A DNA stretch of 64,000 bases from Halostagnicola kamekurae (GTDB taxonomy: Archaea > Halobacteriota > Halobacteria > Halobacteriales > Natrialbaceae), in assembly GCF_900116205.1 (NCBI RefSeq), contig NZ_FOZS01000003.1, forward strand, positions 248,001-312,000. Direction: 5' to 3'. The notes under the pieces are model-generated. The model did not search any database, was not told the DNA's origin, and saw only the letters and a program-made list of their open reading frames with translations. Below, piece by piece: positions 3,633 to 32,873 of this stretch (position 1 is the stretch's first letter; the number at the start of each line of letters is the position of its first letter). The translations under genes and the position numbers were made by a program.

Positions 3633-5146
3633 CGACTGCCAGTCTCCGGACGTATTTACAGACGCTCGAATCGAGGGGAGACCTCCACCGGATCGACGAT
3701 TCCGTCTCGTGGAACCTCGAGGCCAGCGCCGTCACGATGGCGTCGAACAAAGAGGACAGCGCGATTCCCCTGTTCGACGACGTCGACGCCGCGCGGCTCG
3801 TGGGCGATCCGTATCGGGGGACACAGGAACGGCCGTGGGAACGCATCGCCCTGGGGCTGGGACTGCCGCCGGACCTCTCGGCTCGCGAATACTACGAAGC
3901 CGTTATCGACCGGCTGAAAGATCCGCGCGACCCGGTGACCGTTTCGACCGACGACGCGCCGTGCAAGGAGGTGGTCGTCGACGGTGATGACGTCGACCTG
4001 CTCGAATTTCCCTGGCCGTACATCCACGGCGGCGACGGCGGGCGCTACTCGAACGTCCACACGCTTATCGCGCCCGATCCCGACTCCTCGTGGGTCGACT
4101 GGTCGAACCACCGCTCGATGATACACGACGGCGAGAACGCGAGCGTCCTGTTGCTCGCCGGCGAACAGACGCCGAACCTCTACTACTACAAGTACGAGCG
4201 CCGCGACGAGCCGATGCCGGTCGCCATCGCGGTCGGCGTCGAACCCGCCGTGCAGTACACCTCCGTCATGTGGATCCCGACGGGCCGAAGCGAAGCGGAG
4301 TTCGCGGGGGGATTGAAGCAGGCACCCGTCGAACTCGTCCCCGCCGAGACGAACGACCTCATGGTGCCGGCGTCCGCCGAACTGGTAATCGAGGGCGAAA
4401 TCGTCCCCAACGAACGCCGAGACGAGGGACCGTTCGGCGACTACTTCGGGTATATGCACGGCCCGCGCCGATCGATGCCGCTGTTGCGAGTATCGTCGAT
4501 AACCCACCGCGAGAACCCGATTATACCCTTTTGCGTCGAAGGAACGGGCGTCGGCTACTCCGAGAACTCCACAAGTTCGATGGAAGTCGGCTGTGTCGGA
4601 CCCGACGCGACGCTCGGGCTCCGAGCGGCGGGTTTCGACGTCGAGAGCTGCGTTCCCTGGAAGTCGACGCCGCGGACCGTCTACGTCATCTCGACGGAGA
4701 CCACGGACGCCGGCTACCTCCACGAGCTCGCGAACTTCATCTTCACGACCTGGGGGATGCTCCACGTCGATTTCTTCGTCTTCGTCGACGGCGACGTCGA
4801 CCCGCTCGATCAGCGGGCGGTGCTCGAGGCGCTGGCGCTTCATGCCGATCCGGACACCGACTTTCACCAGTTCGGCGTCGAAACGATGCCGAAGGTCCCG
4901 CTGAACATCTACCAGACCCCGAACGAGAAGGGTAACGTCCAGACCGGCACGTCGAAGGCGAAATCGGCGAAGGCGTATATCGACGCCACGCGGTCCGAGA
5001 CCGACGGCGACTCGACGAGGGGGGCAGGCGGGCCGTCTCGAGGCGACGACGCAGAAGCCGAGTACCGCGCGCGGAAGATACTCGAGCGCGCGGGAGTCGA
5101 TACGGGAACCGCGTCGCCGCTCGACATGGAGGGGCTCGTTCGATGA
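3629..5146 (+). CDS. UbiD-family prenyl-FMN-dependent (de)carboxylase, catalytically complete by motif
   Basis: 505 residues, the usual length of UbiD/Fdc enzymes, which reversibly (de)carboxylate aromatic or alpha,beta-unsaturated acids using prenylated FMN. Family landmarks are visible: a SNHRSMIHD segment (near 155-163, cofactor-binding region with Arg), AELVIEGEI (about 250-258) and EGPFGDYFGYM (266-276), the loop holding the catalytic acid. No UbiX prenyltransferase gene is in the window. A 4-base overlap joins it to the gene before and another to the second UbiD gene after it. The C-terminal 70 residues include a charged low-complexity linker around 455-475. The substrate cannot be read from sequence; the setting suggests an aromatic acid. 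Confidence 0.9.
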   Translation: MTTASLRTYLQTLESRGDLHRIDDSVSWNLEASAVTMASNKEDSAIPLFDDVDAARLVGDPYRGTQERPWERIALGLGLPPDLSAREYYEAVIDRLKDPRDPVTVSTDDAPCKEVVVDGDDVDLLEFPWPYIHGGDGGRYSNVHTLIAPDPDSSWVDWSNHRSMIHDGENASVLLLAGEQTPNLYYYKYERRDEPMPVAIAVGVEPAVQYTSVMWIPTGRSEAEFAGGLKQAPVELVPAETNDLMVPASAELVIEGEIVPNERRDEGPFGDYFGYMHGPRRSMPLLRVSSITHRENPIIPFCVEGTGVGYSENSTSSMEVGCVGPDATLGLRAAGFDVESCVPWKSTPRTVYVISTETTDAGYLHELANFIFTTWGMLHVDFFVFVDGDVDPLDQRAVLEALALHADPDTDFHQFGVETMPKVPLNIYQTPNEKGNVQTGTSKAKSAKAYIDATRSETDGDSTRGAGGPSRGDDAEAEYRARKILERAGVDTGTASPLDMEGLVR

Positions 5147-6570
5147 CGCTTCGAACGCACCTCGAACGCCTCGCGGACGCGGGCGAGCTGGTGACCATCG
5201 ACGAGCAGGTCCACTGGGACGAGACTGCGGCTGCCGTCGGACGCGAGGCGATTCGATGCGGCGGTCCCGCGACGCTTTTCGACGAAACCCCGGAAACGGT
5301 ACGATTCGCGAGCGGCGTCTACGGCGGTCCGAGCCAGTTCTCGAGCCGATCACACCATCCCGGACGGCGGGTCGCACAGGCGCTCGGGCTCGGCGCCGAC
5401 TGTTCGTACGTGGAGTTGCTCGAGCACCTGTCCGGGCGCGAGACGGCCTCGCTCGAGGACCGACGAACCGAGCCGGCGGCGACCGACACCGACGACTCGG
5501 GAGACGTCCACGCCCTCGGCCTGCCGACGGTCGGAACCGAGCGGTACCCGCTCGTCTCGCTCGGCCTGCTCGCCGCTGAGAACGACGGGACGACGACCTG
5601 GGTGCCCATTCGCGGACAGGCCCTCCACAACGATCGACTCCGACTGTCGGTTCCCGAGGCATTCCTCGAGTGGTCTGAGCCGGAGTCGGGGGCGAGCGTG
5701 GTTCTCGGCGCGTCGGCCTGCTCGCTCGTCGCGGCGCTACAGGGCTGGACGCAGGATCGGACCGCGCCCGCGGTCCCCGAACGCGCCGCGGGACTGGCCG
5801 ACGTATCGCTGTCGACCGTCGGTTCGCGGGTTGTGCCGGCCGACGCCGAGGTCCGAATCGACGGTGCGATCCGCGTCGTCGAGGCCGCACCGCGCGGACC
5901 GAGCGCCGCCTGGGAGCTGACGTGTGACACCGCGACCGTGGAGCTTCGGGTCGACGAAATCGTCACCCGCGAGTCGCCGATCGTTTCGTTCACGCCCGCA
6001 ACCGGCCCGATGACGGACGATCTGCACCTGACGAGTCTCGTCGAGGCCGCCCAGCTATACAGGCGGGTCAACAACTACTGGGGTGTCTCGCCGGTCGAGT
6101 GGATCCAACTGCCCGTCGAGGCCAGCCTCGGGCTCTGTATCGTCTCGAGCGAGATCCTCTACGCCGGGTTCGAGTGGCAACTCGCGAACACGCTCTTTTC
6201 GTTCTCGAACGTATTCGACAAGGTCGTCGTGTTAGACGAGCAGGCCGACCCGACGAACCTCGCTCGAGCGGTCAACGACATGTGGGTGAAAGCGCACCCG
6301 GCGAACGACTGGACCTTCAGCGAGCCGAACGCGCCCGCAGCGACCGCGACGCGGTATCGTCGCGACGGCGAGACCGGCGCTCGGCTCTACGTCAACGCCA
6401 CGTGGGACCCGCGCTGGGACGAAGAGTACATCGCGCCACGGGTAACCTTCGAGACGACGTTCTCGGAGAACGTCCTCGAGGCCCTAGACGAGCGCTGGGA
6501 AGCGCTCGGACTGGACGAACTGCTCGGTTCGCGGGACCAGACGGCGGTTTCGGAGCACTTCCATGAGTGA
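5143..6570 (+). CDS. UbiD-family paralogue lacking the active-site acid loop
   Basis: 475 residues aligning in order with the preceding UbiD protein (SLRTYL/TLRTHL start, VPADAEVRIDGAI, conserved C-terminal NTLFSFSNVFDKVVVLD block), so it is a true paralogue. Where the partner has EGPFGDYFGYM this one has RGPSAAWEL (251-259), losing the catalytic Glu and the following acidic residue. The SNHRSM segment is also changed to PIRGQALHND. It is therefore probably not an independent decarboxylase. Stop-start overlaps on both sides (ATGA with the active UbiD gene, ATGAGTGA with the hydrolase gene) suggest fixed co-translation, as for a hetero-oligomer subunit. Confidence 0.8.
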   Translation: MTLRTHLERLADAGELVTIDEQVHWDETAAAVGREAIRCGGPATLFDETPETVRFASGVYGGPSQFSSRSHHPGRRVAQALGLGADCSYVELLEHLSGRETASLEDRRTEPAATDTDDSGDVHALGLPTVGTERYPLVSLGLLAAENDGTTTWVPIRGQALHNDRLRLSVPEAFLEWSEPESGASVVLGASACSLVAALQGWTQDRTAPAVPERAAGLADVSLSTVGSRVVPADAEVRIDGAIRVVEAAPRGPSAAWELTCDTATVELRVDEIVTRESPIVSFTPATGPMTDDLHLTSLVEAAQLYRRVNNYWGVSPVEWIQLPVEASLGLCIVSSEILYAGFEWQLANTLFSFSNVFDKVVVLDEQADPTNLARAVNDMWVKAHPANDWTFSEPNAPAATATRYRRDGETGARLYVNATWDPRWDEEYIAPRVTFETTFSENVLEALDERWEALGLDELLGSRDQTAVSEHFHE

Positions 6571-9745: not shown

Positions 9746-10510
9746 TCAGTTCATCGTGTACAGCTGGTTTTTCTCGCCCCGGAGCTGCTCGACGTCCGTT
9801 TGGCTGATCGAGCCGGAGTCGGACCGTCGTCGCTTCTCGTCCCAATCCTCGAGAGCGGGTTCGTCCCACTCGACGCCCTCGAGCGAGACGTCGGTCCCCT
9901 CGAACAGGCGCTGGTAGTGGTCGATGTAGGCGTCACGAATGTCAGCGACCGACCGGTCGGTGAAGCCGGCGGTGTAGACGGGATCGGCTTCCTCGTCGTA
10001 CTCCGACGGGCCGATGAGCGCGAGCGCCTGCGGTAACGTCGTCTCGAGGGTTTGCTGGACCGTTTCGGGATCCTCCTCGGCGAGCGTCTCGAGGCGGGCG
10101 TCGTGGTACTCGAGGTGGAAGTACTCGTCTTCGCCCATCTTGGTGAACATGCCGTCTAGATCCTCACGGTCGATCGCATCGATGAGGTACCACGCGGCGC
10201 GATCAGCAGGCGCGATCGAGGCGACGTACTCCGTCCAGTTCCCGTCGATCCGATCGAGACAGGCGGCGTTCGCGAACTCCTCGGGATCCCGCCCACCGTT
10301 TATCCACTCGAGGTCGCGTCCCTGTCCCTCGAGTTCGCGCGCGAGTTGGCGAACGTGACCGATCTCCTCCTGTGCCGCGCTCGCCCCGCCGATGTCGTCC
10401 TCGAGCGAGGGTCCGGAGAGGCTCCACTCGGCATAGCGGTGCCCCAGGAGGAGCTTCGTGTCGGAGATCGCCTGCACGTAGTCAACCGCGGGTTCTGGCC
10501 ACTCACTCAC
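9746..10510 (-). CDS. paaC: PaaC-type subunit of ring 1,2-epoxidase
   Basis: 254 residues from a GTG at 10510, which overlaps the end of paaB by 8 bases (GTGAGTGA). A longer open frame upstream only reads through paaB in another frame. A ferritin-like helical protein with AQEEIGHVRQLAREL (near 60) and DAIDREDLDGMFTKMGEDEYFHLEYHDARL (about 120-145). PaaC is the structural partner of PaaA, and in bacteria it lacks the working di-iron site. The last 30 residues are charged and variable. Gene order and the neighbouring paaA, B and D support the call more than any single motif. Confidence 0.88.
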   Translation of the reverse strand: MSEWPEPAVDYVQAISDTKLLLGHRYAEWSLSGPSLEDDIGGASAAQEEIGHVRQLARELEGQGRDLEWINGGRDPEEFANAACLDRIDGNWTEYVASIAPADRAAWYLIDAIDREDLDGMFTKMGEDEYFHLEYHDARLETLAEEDPETVQQTLETTLPQALALIGPSEYDEEADPVYTAGFTDRSVADIRDAYIDHYQRLFEGTDVSLEGVEWDEPALEDWDEKRRRSDSGSISQTDVEQLRGEKNQLYTMN

Positions 10511-10712
10511 CGGCGACCACCTCGCGTTCGGGCTGTTCGCCGCTGACCTCGTGGAGGTTCTCCTCGCGGACGACGGCCAGGTAATTCCAGTCTTCTTCGT
10601 CGAAGGTGTTGTAGGCGTACATCTGTGCAAGTTTGTCGCTCTGTGCGGTGACGGTACCGATGTGGAGGGTATCGTCACCCTGGTTTATTCGTGCGAATAC
10701 TTCGTACTTCAT
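10503..10712 (-). CDS. paaB: PaaB-type small subunit of ring 1,2-epoxidase
   Basis: 69 residues, beginning MKYEVFARI and containing HIGTVTAQSDKLAQMYAYNTFDE. This is the PaaB pattern (xYEVFxR...HVGSxxAxDxExAxxxARDxYxRR) without the usual C-terminal length; bacterial PaaB is about 95 residues. PaaB bridges the PaaAC heterodimers into the functional complex. It starts 6 bases after the paaD stop and overlaps paaC by 8 bases. The gene order A-D-B-C differs from the E. coli A-B-C-D-E order. Confidence 0.85.
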   Translation of the reverse strand: MKYEVFARINQGDDTLHIGTVTAQSDKLAQMYAYNTFDEEDWNYLAVVREENLHEVSGEQPEREVVAGE

Positions 10713-10718
10713 CGGTGA

Positions 10719-11114
10719 TTAGAGGCTGATACCGGACTCGCGCATCTTTTCGCGGACCGGTTCGGTGAGCATGTCCTTCGACCAGACGGGATCCCAGACG
10801 ACCTCGACGTCGACCTCGTCGACGCCGTCGGTCAGCGATAGGCAGCTCTCGATGTCGTTCTGGATCATGTCGTAGGCGGGACAGCCCATACACGGGTAGG
10901 TCATTTCGACGGAGACGGTGCCGTCGGATTCCTCGACGTCGTAGATCATCCCCATCTCTACGAGGCTGACGGGAATGTGCGGATCCGGGATTTCGTCGAT
11001 CATGTCCCAGAGTTCCCGCTCGAACGGCGTCGCGTCGGCGCGTCGGTTCTCGACGAACTTGCCGGCCAGATCGGTTCCGACGGAATCCGGTGCGTTTGCG
11101 CGTGCGCTCGACAT
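10719..11114 (-). CDS. paaD: PaaD DUF59/MIP18-type protein (N-terminal half of classical PaaD)
   Basis: 131 residues. The DUF59 core starts near 40: DEIPDPHIPVSLVEMGMIYDV, then YPCMGCPAYDMI with Cys 75 and 78. MIP18/DUF59 proteins help assemble iron-sulfur or di-iron centres, and bacterial PaaD is required for phenylacetyl-CoA epoxidase activity. The zinc-ribbon domain that normally follows is missing here and encoded three genes downstream (9564-9740). The ATG at 11114 is only 2 bases from the paaA stop. A long frame extends upstream but overlaps paaA entirely in another frame, so it was discarded. Confidence 0.88.
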   Translation of the reverse strand: MSSARANAPDSVGTDLAGKFVENRRADATPFERELWDMIDEIPDPHIPVSLVEMGMIYDVEESDGTVSVEMTYPCMGCPAYDMIQNDIESCLSLTDGVDEVDVEVVWDPVWSKDMLTEPVREKMRESGISL

Positions 11115-11116
11115 TG

Positions 11117-12037
11117 TTACACCTCGAGCTCCACGGTTCCGGACTGGACCATGTTCACGTACTTGTCGTTGGCGGGCCCGCGCGAGCGCCACCGGTCCAT
11201 GACGTCGGACCACGAAATCGGCTCGTCGAAGCGCCACTCCTTGTTGTCGGCGTCGAACGCCACCGGGAGCTCGTATTCGAGGACGTACTCGTCGCGCTCC
11301 TCGCTGTAGTGGGCGGGAACGTCGAGGTCGAGTTCGTTCATCAGCGGGAGCGTCCGAGAGAGCCAGTCCTGACGGAGTTCGTCGTTGGACTTGCCCTTGA
11401 TGCGGTACTCGAGCTGGTCGTCGTGTTTTTTCTTGTCGTCGGGCATGCCGAACCACTCGACGCCCATCGGGAACATCCAGTCGATGGCCTCCTGCAGTCG
11501 GCGTTTGGTCTTCTCGCTGTTGTTCGCCAGTCGGCGCATCCACGTCTCGCCGTGACGAAGGTGGAACTGTTCTTCCTTGCTCACCTTTGTGAGCGCGCGC
11601 TTCCAGGGTGCGTAGGAGGTGTTCTCGTGGATGTCGCTGAGGAGCACGATCCCGGCGCGGTCGAAGATGCCGTGAGCCGTGACGAGCTCGGCGAAGTTCT
11701 CGATGTGCTGGTCGAACCCGTACGTGTTACGGAACTCGTGGGGCTCTCGCTCGTAGATGAGTTCGTGTCGGTCCTCGCCGAGGTCCTCGAGCAGCCGGTA
11801 GGCGATGTGACCGTGGCCGAGTTCGTCCTGGATGACGCTGATACACGAAGCGCGCGCGTCGAGCGACGGCGCGTTGAGCGACTGGTCGTAGTAGGCCGGC
11901 GCGCTCATGAGTTCGGTGTCGCCCGAGACGAGCAGGATCTGTTTGAGGGCTTTCTTGTACCCTGCGGTCATCTCGTCGGTCGATTCGATCATCTTCCCGT
12001 TCTGGAGTTCGTCCTTGAGTTGTGATTCCGTGGGCAT
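11117..12037 (-). CDS. paaA: PaaA-type catalytic di-iron subunit of a CoA-ester ring 1,2-epoxidase
   Basis: 306 residues, like bacterial PaaA (about 310). The di-iron carboxylate pattern is visible: QDELGHGH (Glu 72, His 75), NFAELVTAHGIFDRAG (112-129) and the second ExxH in SKEEQFHLRHGE (Glu 156, His 159). The enzyme epoxidises the ring of phenylacetyl-CoA or a related aroyl-CoA with O2 and reductant from PaaE. Within the family it is divergent, so benzoyl-CoA or another CoA ester is possible. I chose the ATG at 12037; the GTG at 12067 would precede the transcript start expected from the TATA box (TTATAA, about 12076-12081). A GTATAC-N7-GTATTT element lies just upstream of that box. Confidence 0.9.
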   Translation of the reverse strand: MPTESQLKDELQNGKMIESTDEMTAGYKKALKQILLVSGDTELMSAPAYYDQSLNAPSLDARASCISVIQDELGHGHIAYRLLEDLGEDRHELIYEREPHEFRNTYGFDQHIENFAELVTAHGIFDRAGIVLLSDIHENTSYAPWKRALTKVSKEEQFHLRHGETWMRRLANNSEKTKRRLQEAIDWMFPMGVEWFGMPDDKKKHDDQLEYRIKGKSNDELRQDWLSRTLPLMNELDLDVPAHYSEERDEYVLEYELPVAFDADNKEWRFDEPISWSDVMDRWRSRGPANDKYVNMVQSGTVELEV

Positions 12038-12089
12038 AGCTCGTTTCGTCCGATTAGTAGTTGTCACCCCAGGGTTATAATTGTTTTCT

Positions 12090-13891: not shown

Positions 13892-15544
13892 TTACTGGCG
13901 CTCACGCTCGCGAAGTTCGGTTCGGCGAATCTTCCCGGTCTCCGTGCGCGGAAGCGTCTCCATGAACTCGACCGCACGCGGGTACTTGTACGGCGCGAGC
14001 GTGTTCTTGACGTGGTTCTGAATCTCCTCGACCAGCCCGTCAGAGGCCGACGCGTCGTCGGTCAGCACGACGAACGCCTTGACGATCTCGCCGCGTTCTT
14101 CGTGGGGACTTCCGGTCACGGCGACCTCCGAGACGGCGTCGTGTTCCTCGACGACGGCCTCGACTTCGGGGCCCGGAATGTTGTATCCACTCGAGATGAT
14201 GAGGTCGTCGCTGCGGGATTTGTACTCGAGGCGCCCGTCCTCGCGCTGGACGAAGATGTCGCCCGGGATCGACCACCCGTCCTCGACGGCCTCGAGTTGC
14301 TTTTCGGGCCGGTTCCAGTACTCGATTCCCGTCGGGCCGCGGACTGCGAGCAGTCCGGCTTCGCCGCGGGGTACCTCCTCGCCCGTGTCGGGATCGATGA
14401 TCTTGCACTCATAGCCCGGAACCGGGAAGCCGGTCGCACTGGGATCGATGTCGCCGTCGTGGCGGTGACTGATGAAGATGTGGAGCATCTCCGTGGTTCC
14501 GATGCCGTCAAGCAGCGGGATTCCGTACTCCTCTTGGAAGTTCTCGAAGGTGGTCGGCGTCAGCGGTTCCCCCGCGCTGAGGCCGACTCGAAGCGACGAG
14601 ATATCGTACTCCGACGGCCCGTCGGGATACTGTGAAAGGATCTGATTGAACCCCGTCGGGATCGAACAGAGCACCGAGACCTCGTGCTCGTCGACCGCCT
14701 CGAGGAGGTCGCCGGGCGAGGCGTCTTCGACCAGACTCGTGGTCGCGCCGAACCGGAGCGGGAACGTGACGAGGTCGCCGTAGCCGTAGGCGAACGGAAG
14801 CGGGGGGTTGCCGCCGAAGACGTCTTCTTCCGTCGGCTCCAGACAGTATCGCGCGTACGAATCCGCGGTCGCCAGGACCTGTCTGTGGGTGTGGATCGCC
14901 CCCTTCGGTCGGCCCGTCGTCCCGCTCGTATAGAGCATGAGCGCCAGGTCGTCGCGGTCGGTCTCGTACGCCTCAAGGTCCTCGCTCCCGTCGTCGAGCA
15001 TGTCGTCGTAGCTACGATAGCCGTGATCGACGCCGTTTCGCTCGGCGACGACGACGGTTTCGACGGTCTCGAGTTCGGGAAGCGCGTTCTCGACTTCCTC
15101 GAGGAGGTCGTCGTAGACGACGACGGTCGTCGCCTCGGCGTTGTTGATGATGTACTCGAGTTCCTTTGCCCGAAGCAGTTTCATCGACGGCAGCGCCACG
15201 GCGCCGATCTTCTGGGCCGCGAGACAGGAGACGATCGCCTCCGGCCGGTTCGGGAACCTGACGACGACGCGGTCGCCCGGTTCGACCCCCGACTCTCGGA
15301 GCGCGTTTCCGAATCGGTTAACGCGCGACTGTAACTCCTCGTAGGTGATCTCCCGGTCTTCGAAGCGTACCGCGACGTTGTTTCCGCGTCCCTCCCGAAC
15401 GTGTCGGTCGACAAGTTCGTCGACCACATTCAACTGTTGAGGGTAGTGTGCCTCCGGTACCGGGTGGATGTAATCCGGCGTGTCACCATCGTCTGGTAGA
15501 TACTCCGCTGGAACAGTTTCCTGCATGTACGAGTAGTTCATCAT
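13892..15544 (-). CDS. Benzoate-CoA-ligase-type AMP-forming acyl-CoA ligase
   Basis: About 550 residues of the ANL superfamily. Motifs: LYTSGTTGRPKGAIHTH (A3, about 205-221), GIGTTEML (about 345), IPGDIF and YKSRSDDLIISSGYNI (hinge region), and catalytic Lys in TGKIRR near the C-terminus. The pattern is of the benzoate/2-aminobenzoate-CoA ligase branch rather than PaaK, so it likely activates an aromatic acid with ATP and CoA for the PaaA-type epoxidase. It starts a leftward unit upstream of the paa region. ATG at 15544 gives the longest form. The ATG at 15526 fits better with the TATA-like TTTTAAG (15547-15553) and a leaderless transcript. Confidence 0.85.
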   Translation of the reverse strand: MMNYSYMQETVPAEYLPDDGDTPDYIHPVPEAHYPQQLNVVDELVDRHVREGRGNNVAVRFEDREITYEELQSRVNRFGNALRESGVEPGDRVVVRFPNRPEAIVSCLAAQKIGAVALPSMKLLRAKELEYIINNAEATTVVVYDDLLEEVENALPELETVETVVVAERNGVDHGYRSYDDMLDDGSEDLEAYETDRDDLALMLYTSGTTGRPKGAIHTHRQVLATADSYARYCLEPTEEDVFGGNPPLPFAYGYGDLVTFPLRFGATTSLVEDASPGDLLEAVDEHEVSVLCSIPTGFNQILSQYPDGPSEYDISSLRVGLSAGEPLTPTTFENFQEEYGIPLLDGIGTTEMLHIFISHRHDGDIDPSATGFPVPGYECKIIDPDTGEEVPRGEAGLLAVRGPTGIEYWNRPEKQLEAVEDGWSIPGDIFVQREDGRLEYKSRSDDLIISSGYNIPGPEVEAVVEEHDAVSEVAVTGSPHEERGEIVKAFVVLTDDASASDGLVEEIQNHVKNTLAPYKYPRAVEFMETLPRTETGKIRRTELRERERQ

Positions 15545-23753: not shown

Positions 23754-25346
23754 CTAATTCACGTTCTCGTCGGTGTCGCTCCAGTGTTCTTCCCGCAGTT
23801 CGAACTTCTGGATCTTGCCGGTCGAGGTCTGGGGAAGCGACTTACGGAACTCCACCTGCGTGGGACATTTGTAGTGGGCGAGTCGTTCTCGAGTGAACTT
23901 GATGAGGTCGTCTTCGGTCAACTCGGAGTCGTCGTCGGTGACGACCAGCGCTTTCGGCGTCTCGCCCCACTTCTCGTGGGGGACGGCGATGACCGCGGCC
24001 ACCCGAACCTCGGGGTGGTCGTAGATCGTATCCTGGACTTCGATCGAGGAGATGTTCTCGCCGCCGGAGATGATGATGTCTTTCTTCCGGTCGACGATCG
24101 TTATCATCCCGTTCTCGTCGATGGTCGCGATGTCGCCGGTGTGGAACCAGTCGTCGACGCGGTCGTGGAACGCGCGTTCGGTCTCCCCGGGCTTGTTCCA
24201 GTACCGATCGAGGACCTGATTGCCTCGAGCGACGACCTCGCCTTTGGTCGCGTCGTCCCGCGGCACGTCCTCGCCGTCCTCGTCGACGACGCGTATCTTC
24301 GTGTTCAGCGTGGCGAAGCCCGGCTTGTTGATGATGTCGTACTTGTCCCCGGCCTCGATCCTGCGCCTCGAGTTGCTGGTCGTGATGAGGGGACCGGTCT
24401 CGGTCGCGCCGTAGGCGTGGATGATCCGCCAGCCGAGTTCGTCCTCGGTTCGCCTGATCGTCTGTTTCGGTGGCGGACTCGCCGCGGTCTCGACGCGGAC
24501 CGGCTTCTCGCCGCTGGTCGGCACGTCGGCTTCGTCGCGGTACTCGAGGAGCATGTTCAGGACCGTCGGCGCGCCGCCGAGGAACGAGACGTCGTGTTCG
24601 CGGATGCGCTCGAAGACCGTTCCGGGGTCGAAATCCCGCAGGATGACGTGGGTGCCGCCGATGCCGGTGAGCCCGTAGATGTGCCCCCAGCCGTTGATGT
24701 GGAACATCGGCGAGGTCCAGAGGATGGTATCGTCGTCCTCGAACTCGACGTGGTGGGCGTGGATCAGCGCGTGGTAGTGCTGGCTGCGGTGGGTGTGGAC
24801 GACCCCTTTGGGGTCTCCGGTCGTCCCCGACGTGTAGAGGATCGTCGCGTCGTCGTCCTCCGAGAGGTCGACTGCGTCGGGCGCGGTCGCCGGGGAGTTC
24901 TCGAGGACGGTTTCGTAATCGTCCCAGTTACCCTCAACCGTGGTGGCGTCGTAGGCGATCCACGACCCGACGCCGCACTCGCCTTTGAGGTGCTCGAGTT
25001 TCCCCGCGTACTCGTAATCGGCGATGAGGACGGTCGGATCGCAGTCGTCGACCAGATAGTCGTACTCCTCGGGCTGGAGCCGGAAGTTCAATGGGACGAA
25101 CAGCGCGCCGATCTGCATTGTCGCGTACAGCGTCTCGATGAAGTAGTGGGAGTTCGGCGAGAGCAACGCGACGCGGTCCCCCTTCTCGACGCCGCGCGCC
25201 CGCAGCGCGTTCGACAGTCGGTCGACCCGCTCGCCGAGTTCGGCGTACGTAAACGCCGTCCCATCGTCTGCGATGACACCGACCTCGTCGCCGAACAGCG
25301 TCACCGCTCGGTCCAGATAATCAGTCGTGAGTAGCGGCTGTTTCAT
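23754..25346 (-). CDS. AMP-forming acyl-CoA ligase (FadD-like)
   Basis: 530 residues of the ANL superfamily: LYTSGTTGDPKGVVHTH (about 165-181), MFHINGWGHIYG, HAYGATETGP (about 310), DWFHTGDIATID, ISSIEVQDTIYDHP and the catalytic Lys in STGKIQKFELR near the C-terminus. The motif set is typical of medium-chain or methylthiopropionate/aryl-type ligases, and the acid substrate is open. It lies alone and convergent with the VOC gene. A direct repeat TACTCATT-N8-TACTCATT sits 59-82 bases before its ATG. Confidence 0.85.
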   Translation of the reverse strand: MKQPLLTTDYLDRAVTLFGDEVGVIADDGTAFTYAELGERVDRLSNALRARGVEKGDRVALLSPNSHYFIETLYATMQIGALFVPLNFRLQPEEYDYLVDDCDPTVLIADYEYAGKLEHLKGECGVGSWIAYDATTVEGNWDDYETVLENSPATAPDAVDLSEDDDATILYTSGTTGDPKGVVHTHRSQHYHALIHAHHVEFEDDDTILWTSPMFHINGWGHIYGLTGIGGTHVILRDFDPGTVFERIREHDVSFLGGAPTVLNMLLEYRDEADVPTSGEKPVRVETAASPPPKQTIRRTEDELGWRIIHAYGATETGPLITTSNSRRRIEAGDKYDIINKPGFATLNTKIRVVDEDGEDVPRDDATKGEVVARGNQVLDRYWNKPGETERAFHDRVDDWFHTGDIATIDENGMITIVDRKKDIIISGGENISSIEVQDTIYDHPEVRVAAVIAVPHEKWGETPKALVVTDDDSELTEDDLIKFTRERLAHYKCPTQVEFRKSLPQTSTGKIQKFELREEHWSDTDENVN

Positions 25347-25622: not shown

Positions 25623-26429
25623 CTACTGGCCCGTAAACTCGGGGTCGCGCCCCTCGAGGAACGCGTCGATCCCCTCGTCCTTGTCGTCGGTCGCGAACAG
25701 TTGCACGAACAGTTCGGCCTCGTAGTCCAGTCCCTCCTCGAGCCCCATCCGGGAACTGGCCTTGACGGCGTTCTTGGCGAACTCGAGGGCGATCGGGCTC
25801 TTCGACGCCATCTTCCCGGCGAGGTCGTCCACCCGCTCGTCGAGGTCGTCCGTCTCGAGCACCTCGTCGACGAGACCGATCTCGCGGGCCTCTTCGGCGT
25901 CGATCAGCTCGCCGGAGAGAATCAGCCGCATCGCCTGTCCCTCGCCGACGAGGCGGGTGAGCCGCTGCGTGCCGCCGCCGCCGGGGATGATGCCGAGGTT
26001 GATCTCCGGCTGGCCGAGCTTCGAGCCGGCTTCGGCGATTCGTACGTCACAGGCCTGTGCGAGTTCGCAGCCGCCGCCGAGGGCGTGGCCGTTGATCCGG
26101 GCGATCACGGGAATCGACGCGTCGTCGACGGTCTCGTAGACTCGCGGGCGCTCGCTCGCCTCGCGCTGCTCGACGACGCCGCGCTCTCGAAACTCGGTCA
26201 CGTCCGCGCCTGCTACGAACGATCCCGAACCATCGCCGCCGGTGAGGACGAGAACCCGGACGTCGTCGTCCCCATCGGCCGCCGCCACGGCGTCCTTGAG
26301 TTCGGTCCGAACCTGACCGTTGAGCGCGTTTCGGGCGTCCGGGCGCTCGATCGCGACCGTCGCGACCCGATCGGCGCGGGTGCCGACCTCGACCGACAGC
26401 AGGTCGTAGTCGTCTTCGAGTTCACTCAT
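25623..26429 (-). CDS. Enoyl-CoA hydratase (canonical, both catalytic Glu present)
   Basis: 268 residues. It has the oxyanion loop FVAGADVTEF (71-80), GHALGGGCELAQACD with Glu 122 and LGQPEINLGIIPGGGGTQRL with Glu 142, the textbook hydratase pair. It adds water to 2-enoyl-CoA for beta-oxidation or the PaaF step. The ATG at 26429 overlaps the stop of the 3-hydroxyacyl-CoA dehydrogenase gene by 8 bases (ATGAGTGA); a GTG at 26438 adds three residues. It is the last gene of the leftward thiolase, DUF35-fusion, dehydrogenase, hydratase operon. Confidence 0.9.
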   Translation of the reverse strand: MSELEDDYDLLSVEVGTRADRVATVAIERPDARNALNGQVRTELKDAVAAADGDDDVRVLVLTGGDGSGSFVAGADVTEFRERGVVEQREASERPRVYETVDDASIPVIARINGHALGGGCELAQACDVRIAEAGSKLGQPEINLGIIPGGGGTQRLTRLVGEGQAMRLILSGELIDAEEAREIGLVDEVLETDDLDERVDDLAGKMASKSPIALEFAKNAVKASSRMGLEEGLDYEAELFVQLFATDDKDEGIDAFLEGRDPEFTGQ

Positions 26430-27312
26430 CGGCCTCACCCCAGTCGCCGCTCGTTCCGACGCGCTCGCCGTCCTCCCAGACGTAGAACCCCTCGCCCGAT
26501 TTCTTCCCGAGGTTCCCCGCTCGAACCTTCCGGCGGAGCGTCTGGGGCGGCTTGAACCGCTCGCCGAGTTCCTCGCGGAGGTGTTCGGCGATGTGGAGCC
26601 GAACGTCGAGCCCGACGTGGTCGGTCAACTCGAGCGGTCCCATCGGATAGCCGTAGCCGATCTTCATCGCCTCGTCGATGTCCGCCGGGCTGGCGACGCC
26701 CTCCTCGACCATTCGGATCGCCTCGAGGCCGGTCGCGACGCCGAGGCGCGAGGACGCGAAGCCAGCGGTGTCCCGGACGACAACCGCCTCCTTCTCGAGG
26801 TCCTCGACGTACTCGACGGCGAACGATTCCGTGCGGTCGTCGGTCTGTTCGGCGACGACGATCTCGACCAGATCCATGATGTGCGGCGGATTGAAGAAGT
26901 GGAGGCCGATCGCTCGCTCCGGACGCTCGAGCGCGCTCGCCATCTCGGTCACCGACAGCGAAGAGGTGTTCGACGCGACGACCGTCTCCTCGTCCGCGGC
27001 GGCCTCGACGTCCGCGAAGACCTCCTGTTTCAGGTCCATGTCCTCGGGAACCGCCTCGACGACGAGGTCGGCGCCGTCGACAGCCGCCTCGAGGTCGGTC
27101 GTCCCCTCGATGCGCCCGAGCGTGGCTTCCATCTCGGCTTCGGTGACTTTGTCCCGGTCGACGCCGCCCTGCAGGTTGTCGCGGATGCCCTCGAGCCCGT
27201 CCTCGACGAACGCTTCTTCGACGTCCCTGAGAACGACATCGTGGCCCGCCATCGCGGAGACCTGCGCGATTCCGTGGCCCATACTTCCAGCTCCGAGTAC
27301 CGTAATTTGCAT
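26422..27312 (-). CDS. 3-hydroxyacyl-CoA dehydrogenase
   Basis: 296 residues, the normal length of a single-function enzyme. Rossmann motif GAGSMGHGIAQ (7-17), then ASNTSSLSVTEMASALERPERAIGLHFFNPPHIMDLVEIV (about 115-155) with the catalytic His in LHFFNPP, and a C-terminal helical domain with GYPMGPLELTDHVGLD. It oxidises 3-hydroxyacyl-CoA with NAD(P)+, the PaaH-type step. ATG at 27312. It lies 38 bases after the HMG-CoA-synthase-like fusion gene and overlaps the hydratase gene. Confidence 0.92.
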   Translation of the reverse strand: MQITVLGAGSMGHGIAQVSAMAGHDVVLRDVEEAFVEDGLEGIRDNLQGGVDRDKVTEAEMEATLGRIEGTTDLEAAVDGADLVVEAVPEDMDLKQEVFADVEAAADEETVVASNTSSLSVTEMASALERPERAIGLHFFNPPHIMDLVEIVVAEQTDDRTESFAVEYVEDLEKEAVVVRDTAGFASSRLGVATGLEAIRMVEEGVASPADIDEAMKIGYGYPMGPLELTDHVGLDVRLHIAEHLREELGERFKPPQTLRRKVRAGNLGKKSGEGFYVWEDGERVGTSGDWGEADE

Positions 27313-27350: not shown

Positions 27351-28766
27351 TCAATCAGTCGGTTCGAACTTCGCGCCGTACCGGGGAACCCCTTCCTGCG
27401 TGTAGATCCGCCGAATCGTCGCCGTAACGGTGTCACCGACCGAGACCGACTCGGGATCCGCGTCGGTGACCTGCGCGGGCAGTGTGATCGTCCCTTCCTC
27501 GGCCTCGAGCGCGACGATCGCGACCGCGTACGCGCCGTCGCGTTGCTGCTGTTCTGCGAACTCCGGCGGCGCGCCGCCCTGTCCGATCGCGGTCACGGCG
27601 CGAACGGTGCCGGTCCGGGGCGCTTCGAACTCGTCGAACTCGACGCGGGCGTGGCACTCCTGGCAGGCGCCCTCGGGCGGGAACGTCACGCCGCCGCACT
27701 CGGGACAGGACCCGGCCACGAGGCGGTAGCGCTGCTCGAGCGAGCCCTGCCAGTTCGGCAGGCTGACGTTCGCGCCGCCGCCGGAGACCTCGCCGTCGAC
27801 GACGTAGCCGCGCTCGCGGAGGTAGGCGGCGTAGGAGATCGGCTCCGCCGCCTCGAGTTCCTCGAGGCCCGGCACCGAAAGGGTGCCCCGGAAGGCGAAC
27901 GCGGCCGCGCTGCCCCCGCCGAAGAAGGCGGCGAGCGAGAGCCCGCTCCCGGCGTCCCCGCCATCGGAAAGCGCCGAGAGCAGTCCGATCGGAACGGTCG
28001 CGGCCCCCGCGTCGCCGATGCGGTCGGCGACGGTTCCCGCCGCCACGGCCTCGCCCGAAATCGGTAGGTCCCCCGCGGCGCGGTAGGGAAACGCGCCGTC
28101 CCGCTGGTGAATCGCCGCGCCGGTCGCCGTCTCCGGGTCGACCTCGAGCGAGTCCACCGCGCTGGTGACGGCCTCGCGGACCGCGTCGCGCTCGTAGGTC
28201 GTGATCCCGAGCGCGTCGACCGTCCGAGTCCCGCGCTCGCGGAACCGGACGCCCGGCGTCTCGTCGCTGTGCCAGGCGCTGTCTGCGATCTCGACCGCCG
28301 GATCGTCGCCGACGACGAACGCGGCGGCACCCGCACCGAACGGGTGGTCGGCATCGGCGGGCTCACCCTTGGGGCAATCGGCCGCGACGACGAGCGCCGT
28401 CCCGTCGGCGTCGAGCGCCCTCGAGAGCGCTTCGGCTCCGGCCGCGGTGTGCTGGGTGGCAGTCGCCGTCGTGACCTGTGCGGGGAGATCGAGCGCCCGC
28501 ACCAATCGCGGAACGAAGTCGCCCTCGGCGAGCGGCGGCGTCGTCGTCGCGGCCGCCACAACGTCGATGGCCGACCGCTCTCGAGACGCGCTCTCGAGCG
28601 CCCGCTCGGCCGCTTCGACGGCCATCGTCAGCGTGTCCTCGTCGGCGGCGGGGACCGCCTTCTGCTCGACCCCGGAGGCGTGGCTCGTTCCCCACGCGGA
28701 CTCGAGTTCGTCGCTCGAGAGGCGGTATCGGGGGACGTAGACCCCGGCGGCGACGATTCCGCTCAT
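27351..28766 (-). CDS. HMG-CoA-synthase-like protein fused to a DUF35 zinc-ribbon/OB-fold, nucleophilic Cys missing
   Basis: 471 residues. Residues 1-300 follow the thiolase-superfamily HMG-CoA synthase fold (VAAGVYVPRYRLSSDEL at the start). At the nucleophile site archaeal HMG-CoA synthases read QACxGA; here it reads QHTAAGAEAL, putting Thr 107 where Cys is needed. Residues 340-471 are a DUF35 unit: a zinc ribbon with Cys 354, 357, 368 and 371, then an OB-fold. In archaea DUF35 proteins bridge acetoacetyl-CoA thiolase and HMG-CoA synthase. The adjacent thiolase gene overlaps by 4 bases, suggesting a thiolase complex with a non-catalytic or altered partner. Confidence 0.8.
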   Translation of the reverse strand: MSGIVAAGVYVPRYRLSSDELESAWGTSHASGVEQKAVPAADEDTLTMAVEAAERALESASRERSAIDVVAAATTTPPLAEGDFVPRLVRALDLPAQVTTATATQHTAAGAEALSRALDADGTALVVAADCPKGEPADADHPFGAGAAAFVVGDDPAVEIADSAWHSDETPGVRFRERGTRTVDALGITTYERDAVREAVTSAVDSLEVDPETATGAAIHQRDGAFPYRAAGDLPISGEAVAAGTVADRIGDAGAATVPIGLLSALSDGGDAGSGLSLAAFFGGGSAAAFAFRGTLSVPGLEELEAAEPISYAAYLRERGYVVDGEVSGGGANVSLPNWQGSLEQRYRLVAGSCPECGGVTFPPEGACQECHARVEFDEFEAPRTGTVRAVTAIGQGGAPPEFAEQQQRDGAYAVAIVALEAEEGTITLPAQVTDADPESVSVGDTVTATIRRIYTQEGVPRYGAKFEPTD

Positions 28767-29941
28767 GCCGATCCCTCCGCGTCTTCTTTCTCGAAGATGT
28801 GGACGGTCGCCCCGCCCCCGCTTCCGCCGACGTTGTGCGTGAGGCCGTACTTCGGATCGTCGACCTGAACGTGTGCCTCGCCTCGGAGCTGGTCGAACGC
28901 CTCGACGATCTGGCCGGTGCCGGTCGCACCGATGGGGTGGCCCTTCGATTTCAGCCCGCCGCTGGTGTTCGTCGGCAACTCGCCGTCGGGATCGGTCACG
29001 CCCTCCCGGAGGAGTCTGCCGGCCTCGCCCCGGTCACAGAAGCCGAGGTCCTCGTAGGCGAGCAGTTCGGCGATGGCGAAACAGTCGTGGACCTCCGCGA
29101 AGTCGAGGTCGTCGGGGCCGATTCCGGCCGCCTCGTAAGCCGCTTCTCCCGCTCGCGTGCTCGCGGGGACCGACGTCAGCGAGCCGCGCTGGAAGAGCCC
29201 GACGCGGCCGCTCGAGGCCCCGCAGCCGGCGACGCGGATCGGCGTGTCGGCGTGCTCTCTCGCCACCTCCTCGCTCGCGACGAGCACGGCGCTCGCCCCG
29301 TCGGTCGTCGGACAGCAGTGATAGAGATTGAGCGGGTCCGCGACCGCCGGCGCGGAGACCGCGTCCTCGAGCGAACACTCGAACCCGAGGTGCGCTTTGG
29401 GGTTTTGCGCGCCGTTGGCGTGGTTTTTCACCGCGACGCGGCTCAGGTCCTCGACGGTCGTGTCGTACTCGTCCATGTGGGCGCTTGCCATCTGCGCGTA
29501 GACGCCCGCGAAGGTGGTCCCGCTCGTTCGCTCCCACTCGGTCTCGCCGCTGACGCCGAGCCACCAGCGGGTGTGATCGGAACTCGCGTCGGTCATCACT
29601 TCGTAGCCGCCCGCCAGCGCGACGTCGGCCATTCCCGACCGGATGGCCGTGACCGCCTGGCGGAACGCGTAGCCGCTCGCGGCGCAGGCGTTCTCGACGC
29701 GGCTCGTGGGGATCCCGTGGAGGCCGACGTGTTCGGTGACCGCGGGCCCCGAGAGCCCGATCTGTCGGCCGCCGACGCCGAGCGTTCCGAGGAAGGCCTC
29801 GTCGATCGACTCCGGTGAGAGTGGCGATTCCACGCTGTCCATCGCCGCGTCGAAGGCGTCGTCGAACAGCGACAGGTACGTTTCGTCCGGAAACGAGCCG
29901 AACGACGACTGACCCGCCCCGAGGACGTATGCATCTCGCAT
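28763..29941 (-). CDS. Thiolase-family acyl-CoA acetyltransferase (SCP2-type)
   Basis: 392 residues. The nucleophile motif is SRVENACAASG, with Cys 86. The C-terminal half has the EVHDCFAIAEL and SKGHPIGATGTGQIVE histidine motifs, ending with NVGGSGG. It fits the archaeal/SCP-x thiolase branch, which cleaves 3-oxoacyl-CoA with CoA (PaaJ-type step) or performs related C-C chemistry when paired with DUF35 proteins. The ATG at 29941 has a TATA-like TCTATAAGG about 28 bases upstream, giving a leaderless transcript. It is the first gene of the four-gene beta-oxidation operon and overlaps the next gene by 4 bases. Confidence 0.88.
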   Translation of the reverse strand: MRDAYVLGAGQSSFGSFPDETYLSLFDDAFDAAMDSVESPLSPESIDEAFLGTLGVGGRQIGLSGPAVTEHVGLHGIPTSRVENACAASGYAFRQAVTAIRSGMADVALAGGYEVMTDASSDHTRWWLGVSGETEWERTSGTTFAGVYAQMASAHMDEYDTTVEDLSRVAVKNHANGAQNPKAHLGFECSLEDAVSAPAVADPLNLYHCCPTTDGASAVLVASEEVAREHADTPIRVAGCGASSGRVGLFQRGSLTSVPASTRAGEAAYEAAGIGPDDLDFAEVHDCFAIAELLAYEDLGFCDRGEAGRLLREGVTDPDGELPTNTSGGLKSKGHPIGATGTGQIVEAFDQLRGEAHVQVDDPKYGLTHNVGGSGGGATVHIFEKEDAEGSA

Positions 29942-30143
29942 GGGTGGGGATAGCTGCCCCGGTCCCTTATAGATGACTCCCGATCGACGCGACGGCTCGT
30001 CCGCGGGCGCGGCCGAATCGAACGAACCGCGAGATCGCTTCGGCGACTCCGACATCCCTTCGGTGACTTCGATTGCGGTATCGGTTCGGAGCCGCACAGT
30101 TCGACGCGACCACACCCTTTTTATCGGATCGCACAGAAGGGCT

Positions 30144-31601
30144 ATGCGTATGAGTTACAGCGGACCGACAGACCTGTTCATCGACGGCGAGTGGATCGAC
30201 GCCGAAGACGGCGAGACGTTTTCGACCGAGGATCCGGCGACCGAAGAGACCTACGCGACCATCGCGCAGGCGGGAGCGGCCGACGTCGACAGCGCGGTTG
30301 CCGCGGCGTCCGACGCGGTCGAGCGCGACAGCGATTGGCGCTCGCTCGACCCGCGCGAACGCGGCCGACGGCTCGATGCCATGGCGGACGCCATCGAATC
30401 GATGTCCGACGAGATCATCCGCGTCGAGTCTCGAGACAACGGCAAGACGCCGTTCGAGGCCTCGCTGGACGTGGAGATGGTCGTCGACACCTTCCGGTAC
30501 TACGCCGGCTGGGCCGACAAGATTCAGGGCGACGAGGTGCCCGTTCCCGGCGACCGGCTGAACTACACCGTTCGGGAGCCAGTAGGCGTGACGGGCCACG
30601 TCATCCCGTGGAACTATCCCTTCCAGCTCGCCGGGCGGAGCCTCGCACCCGCGCTGGCCTGCGGGAACACGGCCGTCCTCAAACCCTCGAGCACGACGCC
30701 GCTGTCGGCGCTGTACTACGCGGTCGCGGCCGAAGAGGCGGGCCTCCCCGACGGCGTGTTGAACGTCGTCCCCGGTCGCGGCTCCACCGCCGGAAACAGA
30801 CTCGTCGAACACCCCGACGTCGACCACATCGCGTTCACGGGCAGCACCGGCGTCGGGAAGGGCGTCATGGAGCAGGCGTCCCAGAACGTGACCGGCGTGA
30901 CCCTCGAGCTGGGTGGGAAGGGTCCGAACATCGTCTTCCCGGACGCCGACCTCGAGGCCGCCGCCGCGGGCTGTCACTACGGAATCTTCATGAACGCCGG
31001 CCAGATGTGCTGGGCGGGTTCGCGCCTGCTCGTCCACGAATCGGTCCACGACGAGGTCGTCGAGCAGGTCGTCGAACGCGCCGAAGCGACGCCGCTCGGG
31101 AGCGGTATCGACGACGACGGCCGAATGGGGCCGACGGTCAGCGAGAGCCAGCAGGAGGAGGTCCTCGAGTACATCGAGAGCGGGAAGGAAGAAGGCGCGA
31201 CGGTCGCGACCGGCGGGGGCGTTCCCGCGGACAGAGACGTCGGTCACTTCGTCGAACCGACCGTGTTCACCGACGTGGAAAACGATATGACGATCGCTCG
31301 AGAGGAGATCTTCGGCCCGGTGCTTTCGGTCATCGAGTTTAGCGACCGCGAGGAGGCGATCGAGATCGCCAACGACTCGCCGTACGGCCTCATGGCCGGT
31401 ATCTGGACGTCCGACCTGCAGACCGCCCACGGCGTGGCCGATTCGCTCGACTACGGCATGGTCAGCGTCAACGAGTATCCGGTCACCCAGCCCCAGACCC
31501 CCTTCGGCGGGTTCAAACAGAGCGGCCGCGGCCGCGAGCAGGGAACCGAAGCGATCCACGAGTACACCCAGACGAAGAACGTCAACGTGAACCTCGAGTG
31601 A
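30144..31601 (+). CDS. NAD(P)-dependent aldehyde dehydrogenase
   Basis: About 485 residues of the classic ALDH family. WNYPFQLAGRSLAPALACGNTAVLKPS is the cofactor region, FTGSTGVGK the glycine loop, LELGGKGPNIV carries the general-base Glu and GQMCWAGSRL the catalytic Cys. It oxidises an aldehyde to the acid. In the Paa route this could replace the ALDH half of PaaZ, since no PaaZ fusion is present; closeness to betaine/aryl-aldehyde enzymes is equally possible. ATG at 30144 (or 30150) is chosen because a TATA-like TTTTTTAT lies about 25 bases before it; a longer frame upstream is not ALDH-like. Confidence 0.9.
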   Translation: MRMSYSGPTDLFIDGEWIDAEDGETFSTEDPATEETYATIAQAGAADVDSAVAAASDAVERDSDWRSLDPRERGRRLDAMADAIESMSDEIIRVESRDNGKTPFEASLDVEMVVDTFRYYAGWADKIQGDEVPVPGDRLNYTVREPVGVTGHVIPWNYPFQLAGRSLAPALACGNTAVLKPSSTTPLSALYYAVAAEEAGLPDGVLNVVPGRGSTAGNRLVEHPDVDHIAFTGSTGVGKGVMEQASQNVTGVTLELGGKGPNIVFPDADLEAAAAGCHYGIFMNAGQMCWAGSRLLVHESVHDEVVEQVVERAEATPLGSGIDDDGRMGPTVSESQQEEVLEYIESGKEEGATVATGGGVPADRDVGHFVEPTVFTDVENDMTIAREEIFGPVLSVIEFSDREEAIEIANDSPYGLMAGIWTSDLQTAHGVADSLDYGMVSVNEYPVTQPQTPFGGFKQSGRGREQGTEAIHEYTQTKNVNVNLE

Positions 31602-31712
31602 GGTCGGTCTCGGGGCAACACCGGGAACGGGCGAGCGCCGGCGTCGGCCCGGCGCGGCGCTGAACCCGATTCTCGGGACTTTTATGGTGATGTGTCTCGC
31701 GTATTCGACCGT

Positions 31713-32873
31713 ATGACTCTCATTGAGAACGTCCTCTCAGAGGAGCACCGAGAGATCCGGGATCGAGCGGCGAACTTCACCGCGGACGTCGTCGAACCGG
31801 AAGCCGAGCGAATCGAACGGACCGACGAGTTCCCGCGTGAGGTACTCGAGCAGGCGGGCGAACGCGGCATCCTCGGGATCTTGCTCCCGGAAGCCTACGG
31901 CGGGGAAGATTCCGATTTCCTCTCGTACTGTCTCGCGATCGAGCAGATCGCACAGGTCAGCGGGGCGGTCGCCGAGTCGATTCACGGCCACACCTTCGCG
32001 GCGCTGCCCATCGCGACCTTCGGCACCGAAGAACAGAAAGAGACGCATCTCGAGGCGATGGTACGCGGCGAATCGATCGGATCGATGTTGCTGACCGAAC
32101 CCGACGCCGGCAGTTCACCGACCGAACTGTCGACCGTGGCGACGGAACGCGACGACGGCGACGGCTACCGGCTCAGCGGCGAGAAGTCCTTCGGGACCAA
32201 CGCCGGCGTCGCGGACGTCCACCTCGTGGTCGCCCGCAAGCAGCCGACGCCGGAAGACGGCCACGGCGTGAGCGTCTTTCTGGCCCCCGGCGTCGACGAA
32301 CGAGACGGATTCACCTTCGACCGCGTAGAGTTCATGGGCATGCGCGGGCACGTCACGGGCGACTCGACGCTCGAGGACGTGCCGGTCGACCGCTCGGCGC
32401 TCCTCGGCGAGGTCGGGCAGGGCTTTCGAATTGCCATGGGAACGATCGATATGGCTCGAACCGGACTCGGTGCGATCGGGACGGGAATCGCCACCGCGGC
32501 GTTCGAGGAAGCCCTCGAGTACGCCGGTGACCGCGAACAGGGCGGCAAAGCGGTCGGCGAGTACCAGGCGGTGCAGGTGCTCGTCGCCGAGATGGACGCC
32601 CGACTCGACGGCGCGCGCCACCTCGTCTACGACTCCGCGGCGTCGATCGCAGCCGACGACGCCAGTACGCGCCAGTCGAGCAAGGCGAAGTACGTCGCGA
32701 GCGACACCGCCGAGTTCGTCACCCGGAACGCAATTCAGGTCCACGGTGGGAAGGGCTACCAGACCGATCTCCCGCTCGAGCGCTACTACCGAGACGCCAA
32801 GATCCTGAGTATCATCGGCGGCACGACGGAGATTCAAAAGACGACCGTCGCGAGCGACGCCCTCGGTCTGTAA
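31713..32873 (+). CDS. Acyl-CoA dehydrogenase
   Basis: 386 residues, three-domain ACAD pattern: helical N-terminus, SMLLTEPDAGSSPTELSTVA (FAD/substrate loop, about 120-140) and the C-terminal VHGGKGYQTDLPLERYYRDAKILSIIGGTTEIQK. The usual catalytic Glu region is YRDAKILSIIGGTTEI. It introduces a 2,3 double bond into acyl-CoA, passing electrons to ETF. A TATA-like CTTTTATGG lies about 30 bases before the ATG at 31713. It is a single-gene unit following the ALDH gene and forms the right end of the aromatic island. Confidence 0.9.
   Translation: MTLIENVLSEEHREIRDRAANFTADVVEPEAERIERTDEFPREVLEQAGERGILGILLPEAYGGEDSDFLSYCLAIEQIAQVSGAVAESIHGHTFAALPIATFGTEEQKETHLEAMVRGESIGSMLLTEPDAGSSPTELSTVATERDDGDGYRLSGEKSFGTNAGVADVHLVVARKQPTPEDGHGVSVFLAPGVDERDGFTFDRVEFMGMRGHVTGDSTLEDVPVDRSALLGEVGQGFRIAMGTIDMARTGLGAIGTGIATAAFEEALEYAGDREQGGKAVGEYQAVQVLVAEMDARLDGARHLVYDSAASIAADDASTRQSSKAKYVASDTAEFVTRNAIQVHGGKGYQTDLPLERYYRDAKILSIIGGTTEIQKTTVASDALGL

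Follow-up and report, generated by a model that had tools for sequence, protein, structure and literature searches.

A stretch of 64,000 nucleotides from the haloarchaeon Halostagnicola kamekurae (contig NZ_FOZS01000003.1, positions 248,001 to 312,000, referred to as the window) encodes a thiolase, P0002, and next to it P0001, a fusion of a domain resembling hydroxymethylglutaryl-coenzyme A (HMG-CoA) synthase (HMGS) with a DUF35 domain. Our evidence on this pair, all of it computational, indicates that the two proteins probably constitute one thiolase complex with P0002 as the catalyst and P0001 as a pseudoenzyme and scaffold, and that thiolysis of 3-oxoadipyl-CoA is its likeliest reaction. 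Judged by its sequence, P0001 is not an HMGS and resembles the non-catalytic subunit of thiolase/DUF35/HMGS-fold complexes.

P0001 has a predicted HMGS/KAS-III fold, and its residues 2-319 match the archaeal HMGS model NF003274 (E 1e-41), but the score of 142.8 bits falls short of the cut-off of 244, as do the 99 bits obtained against the archaeal HMGS equivalog TIGR00748 (cut-off 353). The original prediction had proposed that a threonine replaces the nucleophilic cysteine. This was borne out by phmmer comparison to the HMGS of structure 6ESQ (chain 6ESQ_I) and by the MAFFT family alignment, both of which place Thr107 opposite the catalytic Cys, and no other Cys takes the position. In the alignment to 6ESQ_I the catalytic Glu is replaced by Thr75 and the Asn by Asp252, while His220 is kept; all four catalytic residues are invariant in 30/30 canonical archaeal HMGS in the family alignment. 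Since a true haloarchaeal HMGS is present at another place in the genome (NF041302, 871.9 bits versus a cut-off of 800), HMG-CoA synthesis has no need of P0001. The sub-threshold scores, the lost residues and this second enzyme agree with the earlier expectation that P0001 would not carry out normal HMG-CoA synthesis.

The same loss was observed across the haloarchaeal fusion family, with residues counted over all 116 alignment rows of the haloarchaeal group. The Cys column contains Thr in 106 sequences, Ala in five, Pro in two and Val in one, with no Cys among the ~114 counted; two Cys-bearing rows of the group appear to be true HMGS (loci L013 and L015). The Glu column holds Thr or Ser, the Asn column Asp, and the His column Gln (83), His (22) or Tyr (7). 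A paralog with 48-50% identity on contig C5 of the same genome also has Thr at the Cys site. Because this paralog and 106 aligned haloarchaeal sequences have Thr, Thr107 is not a sequencing artefact, and decay within a single genome is likewise excluded by the paralog and the more than 100 relatives with the same loss. Thr as a replacement nucleophile is unlikely because the position is not invariant.

The C-terminal part of P0001 is a DUF35 domain, as had been predicted, with both zf-ChsH2 (residues 345-374, 31.7 versus 23.2 bits) and OB_ChsH2_C (residues 381-451, 29.6 versus 27.1 bits) scoring above their cut-offs. The zinc ligands Cys354, Cys357, Cys368 and Cys371 are invariant among 52 sequences. 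Halorientalis litorea and a Halobaculum encode the HMGS-like and DUF35 parts in two genes, with the break at the linker, where stop and start overlap by one base (L178 8001-9370 and L179 7992-9388). As these fissions leave separate linked genes, the parts need not be covalently fused, but all three are kept together. Fusions with a C-terminal DUF35 and without Cys, Glu and His were also found in other archaeal families of the same phylum, and among the archaeal fusions outside the haloarchaea the Cys position is occupied by Thr, Val, Leu, Ile, Phe, Met or Ala. At loci L162-L172 (families f15, f18 and f31) such C-terminal HMGS-like/DUF35 fusions have the thiolase downstream and Thr, Val, Leu, Ile, Phe or Met at the Cys position; a canonical HMGS is present as well in some of the genomes concerned. 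Family f16 of the same phylum (L156-L160) carries DUF35 N-terminally on an HMGS in which Glu, Cys, His and Asn are all retained and which, going by these residues, is probably active; this reverse-order fusion with intact residues indicates more than one fusion event. One haloarchaeal HMGS-like protein of 373 amino acids apparently has no DUF35 (L173 6115-4997, reverse strand), and a thiolase lies ~400 bases past the 3' end of its gene.

The partner P0002 is of the PRK06064 type (422.1 bits versus a cut-off of 420) and has an intact active site with Cys86, HDCF at residues 285-288 and GHP at 334-336. HDCF is the motif of SCP2-thiolases, while aldolases carry YDHF (Ltp2) or YDCY (Sal) with Tyr as the base (PMC12329534). 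By this motif P0002 is a predicted SCP2-thiolase and not an aldolase. Among 113 haloarchaeal partner thiolases, HDCF is present in all 113, GHP in 112 with one gap, and the nucleophilic Cys in 112/112 with a letter at that column (one gap). The intact thiolase and the 4-base overlap with the fusion gene are as first described.

This pairing proved to be obligate and widespread. A profile built from the fusion and its paralog gave matches in 249 of the 391 genomes sampled from the class, representing 65 of 86 genera, and a thiolase was present at the locus for 129 of 131 fusions, so that thiolase, DUF35 and HMGS-fold components are encoded together. Among 113 haloarchaeal pairs the genes overlap by 4 nucleotides in 83 and by one nucleotide in 21. 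Exactly one thiolase with at least 70% identity to P0002 was found in each of 15 fusion-bearing genomes (15/15), versus no thiolase above 45% identity in the genomes without the fusion (20/20). In the tree, the haloarchaeal members of the fusion family fall, with one exception, into a single clade. Within it, P0001 belongs to a 28-row subclade with catabolic neighbours (the catabolic clade), while members of the core clade are often a lone two-gene unit or accompanied by 3-hydroxyacyl-CoA dehydrogenase and enoyl-CoA hydratase. The original prediction had treated the fusion as a local oddity; it is instead a conserved haloarchaea-wide family, and PhlA provides a published precedent for a dead HMGS subunit in a complex of this kind (PMC6392133). 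A literature search of partial coverage for haloarchaea with hydroxymethylglutaryl-CoA synthase and thiolase found no paper.

Comparison with Halostagnicola larsenii yielded ratios of nonsynonymous to synonymous substitution rates (dN/dS) of 0.096 for the HMGS-like domain, 0.032 for DUF35 and 0.027 for the thiolase. In two sets matched for thiolase divergence (median identity 0.72 in each), identity was 0.72 for canonical HMGS and 0.46 for the HMGS-like domain. This domain evolves faster than the thiolase, yet it is under purifying selection (dN/dS range 0.07-0.10); being kept but relaxed, it fits a subunit that lost catalysis. The AlphaFold model of P0001 (mean predicted local distance difference test score, pLDDT, 87; predicted template modelling score 0.89) found its best structural match in the 6ESQ HMGS (6ESQ_I, Z 42.4, root-mean-square deviation 2.0 over 319 residues), followed by PhlA of CsATase (Z 42.1), PhlA of PpATase (41.1) and MucA (38.1), with the 6ET9 HMGS also among the top matches (Z ~42).

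Selection on this domain could also mean that its pocket was remodelled (Thr74-Thr76, Thr107, His/Gln220 and Asp252) and either binds a CoA ester or the pantetheine arm and tethers or channels the 3-oxoacyl-CoA to the thiolase, or gained new chemistry. Within the catabolic clade Thr74-Thr76, Asp252 and Gln221 are 100% conserved and position 107 is Thr in 17/20 sequences (85%), Ala in 2/20 and Pro in 1/20. In the Methanothermococcus complex, a CoA site where thiolase and HMGS meet is common to both enzymes (PMC12329534), which would suit such a role. We nevertheless consider it unlikely, as some members have Ala, Pro or Val in place of Thr107 and the fusions of other archaea have the wider range of residues listed above, which leaves no conserved nucleophile at this position, and as His220 differs between clades and the domain outpaces its partner thiolase in divergence.

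The resemblance to the archaeal thiolase/DUF35/HMGS complex noted in the original prediction held: for each of the three parts, the Methanothermococcus thermolithotrophicus complex (6ESQ/6ET9) supplied the top match, or nearly so, in sequence and structure. Unlike in that complex, HMGS and DUF35 form one chain here, the HMGS is without Cys, Glu and Asn, and in haloarchaea the thiolase gene comes first. The closest mechanistic precedent for P0001, by analogy, is PhlA, a dead HMGS subunit without the Cys (Gly115) and the Glu (Cys83). PhlC alone makes contact with the bound substrate, and activity still needs expression of the whole operon (PMC6392133). The PhlC C88S variant of CsATase is inactive (PMC12955522). 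Catalysis is thus confined to PhlC, although none of the three subunits can be missing (PMC6392133, PMC12955522). Like PhlA, P0001 has an HMGS fold without catalytic Cys and Glu beside a thiolase and DUF35, and the combination of dead HMGS-like subunit, DUF35 and catalytic thiolase is common to PhlACB/CsATase (5M3K, 9SKH) and MucABC (9VBO). PhlA and the fusion family also have Gln for His (in most relatives) and Asp for Asn in common. Unlike P0001/P0002, these bacterial systems consist of separate subunits and perform biosynthetic C-acylation. Their thiolase subunit is much more distant from P0002, and the residue losses may be independent. In the tree, PhlA joins at the base of the dead group on a long branch (1.22).

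That the haloarchaeal complex is itself a multi-component C-acyltransferase of the PhlACB/MucABC kind, acylating an aromatic or enolic acceptor, is improbable. The shared three-part architecture, the rank of PhlA and MucA among the structural matches and the aromatic-compound genes close by would agree with it, but P0002 is far nearer to the acetoacetyl-CoA thiolase of 6ESQ, at 266.8 bits, than to PhlC, at ~111-115 bits, and the neighbours of the pair are beta-oxidation enzymes, not biosynthetic genes. The benzoylsuccinyl-CoA thiolase BbsAB (7PXP), which acts on a CoA ester in aromatic catabolism, likewise combines a thiolase with DUF35; P0001 matches BbsA only weakly, in the DUF35 part. BbsAB is not known to have an HMGS-like subunit.

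The original prediction had also raised a carbon-carbon-cleaving aldolase, and indeed DUF35 binds a thiolase-fold partner in the ChsH2-Ltp2 and Shy-Sal aldolases as well (PMC12329534). In those enzymes, however, DUF35 is joined to a hydratase and not to an HMGS fold. Ltp2 and Sal use the Tyr of YDHF/YDCY (PMC12329534), where P0002 has Cys86 and HDCF. Given the conservation of HDCF in every relative, and a frequent 3-hydroxyacyl-CoA dehydrogenase neighbour that would supply a 3-oxo substrate for a thiolase, a retro-aldolase is very improbable. A working HMGS with relocated catalytic residues, for which the fold, the retained His220 and the nearly invariant Glu81 near the former catalytic Glu might speak, can practically be dismissed: the site and its surroundings lack a Cys, P0001 scores below both equivalog cut-offs, and the genome has a true HMGS.

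In the thiolase complex that we favour, P0002 would cleave a 3-oxoacyl-CoA with CoA via Cys86, using His285/Cys287 and His335. The HMGS-fold domain of P0001, without the Cys, Glu and Asn needed for acylation and condensation, would be non-catalytic and retained for a structural role, attached to the DUF35 scaffold of zinc ribbon and oligonucleotide/oligosaccharide-binding (OB) fold. In the Methanothermococcus complex, as in PhlACB, DUF35 acts as the clamp between thiolase and HMGS subunits. Fusion of the two accessory parts would set their supply at 1:1. For the window, the reaction would be 3-oxoadipyl-CoA + CoA -> succinyl-CoA + acetyl-CoA at the end of an aerobic route that breaks down aromatic acids as CoA thioesters.

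This assignment draws on the gene context. The dehydrogenase, hydratase and ligase genes near the pair (Table 1) and the residue loss are in line with the dead subunit in a beta-oxidation setting that was originally proposed. Aldehyde dehydrogenase and acyl-CoA dehydrogenase neighbours were found in 17/25 and 15/25 catabolic-clade relatives, respectively. By its gene content the window resembles an island for aromatic acids, containing a gene for a benzoate-CoA ligase family protein and PaaA-, PaaD- and PaaC-like genes with a reading frame between them that we read as PaaB-like. By our own call from the score table, haloarchaeal PaaA/PaaC form two subtypes with different bit-score patterns, of which the window has the divergent one. 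This subtype was present in 20/23 catabolic-clade genomes versus 0/26 genomes with only the core clade (Fisher 6e-11), and it is because of this co-occurrence that 3-oxoadipyl-CoA thiolysis appears the likeliest job. The Paa pathway ends with a hydratase, a dehydrogenase and then the 3-oxoadipyl-CoA thiolase PaaJ (PMC4498308), and the pair therefore most likely performs this last step here; within the window, no thiolase other than P0002 was found. The segment 9746-15544, where a 2Fe-2S protein and the benzoate-CoA ligase family protein accompany the divergent epoxidase genes, possibly represents a haloarchaeal aryl-CoA epoxidase pathway that is distinct by score from the usual haloarchaeal PaaABC. 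Literature searches of partial coverage on a haloarchaeal aryl-CoA epoxidase or an archaeal 3-oxoadipyl-CoA thiolase returned nothing recognised as relevant.

The residue loss, the fusion, the obligate pairing, the intact thiolase and the gene context come directly from the sequences. Several points weigh against our interpretation. We infer the physical assembly of P0001 with P0002 and the scaffold role, and the substrate from the neighbouring genes. The genome has other thiolases, two of them classical, and any could perform the 3-oxoadipyl-CoA step. The 49 genomes in the co-occurrence comparison are not phylogenetically independent, although within-genus contrasts exist in Natrinema and Haladaptatus. 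Finally, with Thr74-Thr76, Asp252, Gln221 and mostly Thr107 conserved, the old pocket might still bind something.

Table 1. Positions of the gene pair, its functional sites and neighbouring genes in the window
Feature	Position	Strand	Basis or remark
HMGS-like/DUF35 fusion gene (P0001)	27351..28766	-	471 aa
SCP2/archaeal-type thiolase gene (P0002), putative catalytic partner	28763..29941	-	392 aa
ATGA, 4-nt overlap of thiolase and fusion genes	28763..28766	-	sequence
TATAA, ~30 nt upstream of thiolase ATG	29967..29971	-	read from sequence
HMGS-fold domain, ~residues 1-320 of P0001, predicted catalytically dead	27807..28766	-	profile and structure matches, residue loss
Linker and DUF35 N-terminal segment, P0001 residues 321-341	27744..27806	-	residues 326-341 pLDDT <50
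DUF35 scaffold domain, Zn ribbon (Cys354, 357, 368, 371) and OB fold	27354..27743	-	domain matches; 6ESQ_E match
Thr107 codon, site of nucleophilic Cys	28446..28448	-	alignment
Thr75 codon, site of catalytic Glu	28542..28544	-	alignment
His220 codon, sole classical catalytic residue retained in P0001	28107..28109	-	alignment
Thiolase nucleophile Cys86 codon	29684..29686	-	family alignment
Thiolase HDCF motif, residues 285-288	29078..29089	-	family alignment
Thiolase GHP motif, residues 334-336	28934..28942	-	family alignment
3-Hydroxyacyl-CoA dehydrogenase, pathway neighbour	26422..27312	-	
Enoyl-CoA hydratase, pathway neighbour	25623..26438	-	
AMP-binding acyl-CoA ligase, pathway neighbour	23754..25346	-	
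Aldehyde dehydrogenase open reading frame, divergent neighbour	29973..31601	+	true start probably further in
Acyl-CoA dehydrogenase, divergent neighbour	31692..32873	+	
Divergent PaaA/PaaD/PaaB/PaaC-like aryl-CoA epoxidase genes, same island	9746..12067	-	
Benzoate-CoA ligase family protein	13892..15544	-	TIGR02262, 383.6 vs cut-off 375.25 bits

The TATAA ahead of the thiolase ATG is a possible archaeal promoter for a leaderless transcript; a scan for bacterial promoters gave no match, as expected for an archaeon. Further genes of the window encode a 2Fe-2S protein, PaaG- and PaaF-like crotonases, UbiD proteins, CoA transferases and transporters. Two UbiD-family genes, the second a weak match, adjoin at 3629-6570; other haloarchaea, too, repeatedly have UbiD genes close to the catabolic clade. 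The gene set of the window was found rearranged on a plasmid of Haladaptatus salinisoli, and parts of it in Halalkalicoccus, Halostagnicola larsenii and Haloterrigena. In Halostagnicola larsenii, a formate dehydrogenase and a NuoF-like gene adjoin the catabolic cluster (L176 17095-21839), an arrangement that would fit ring opening of the Box type with release of formate.

Two other thiolases of the genome (L005, located just past the window end, and L007) adjoin small OB-fold genes and have Ser at the nucleophile position (NTSASG and QTSSSG). They are probable relatives of the haloarchaeal two-subunit beta-ketothiolases of poly(3-hydroxybutyrate-co-3-hydroxyvalerate) synthesis (HFX_6004-6003 and HFX_1023-1022), which are unusual in their catalytic residue and in the make-up of their subunits (PMC6631277). 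No HMGS-like partner was seen for either of the two (TSASG and TSSSG), in contrast to P0002 with its Cys86 and HMGS-like/DUF35 partner.

New in this analysis are the DUF35 fusion, its breadth, the fissions at the linker and the catabolic subclade that co-occurs with a divergent PaaABC-like epoxidase. More tentatively, haloarchaea may have turned an ancient thiolase/DUF35/HMGS complex into a dedicated catabolic machine in which HMGS became a covalently attached pseudoenzyme and scaffold that may hold on to the CoA arm and channel substrate, with the subclade serving as the 3-oxoadipyl-CoA thiolase of an undescribed epoxidase pathway. The findings point to a pathway of aromatic degradation in haloarchaea. 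They also suggest that a partner in a channelling complex can lose catalysis while the architecture stays under selection across a whole archaeal class. What HMGS-like and DUF35 subunits do in thiolase complexes thereby becomes open to direct test in tractable haloarchaea, among them Haloferax mediterranei with its own member of the fusion family.

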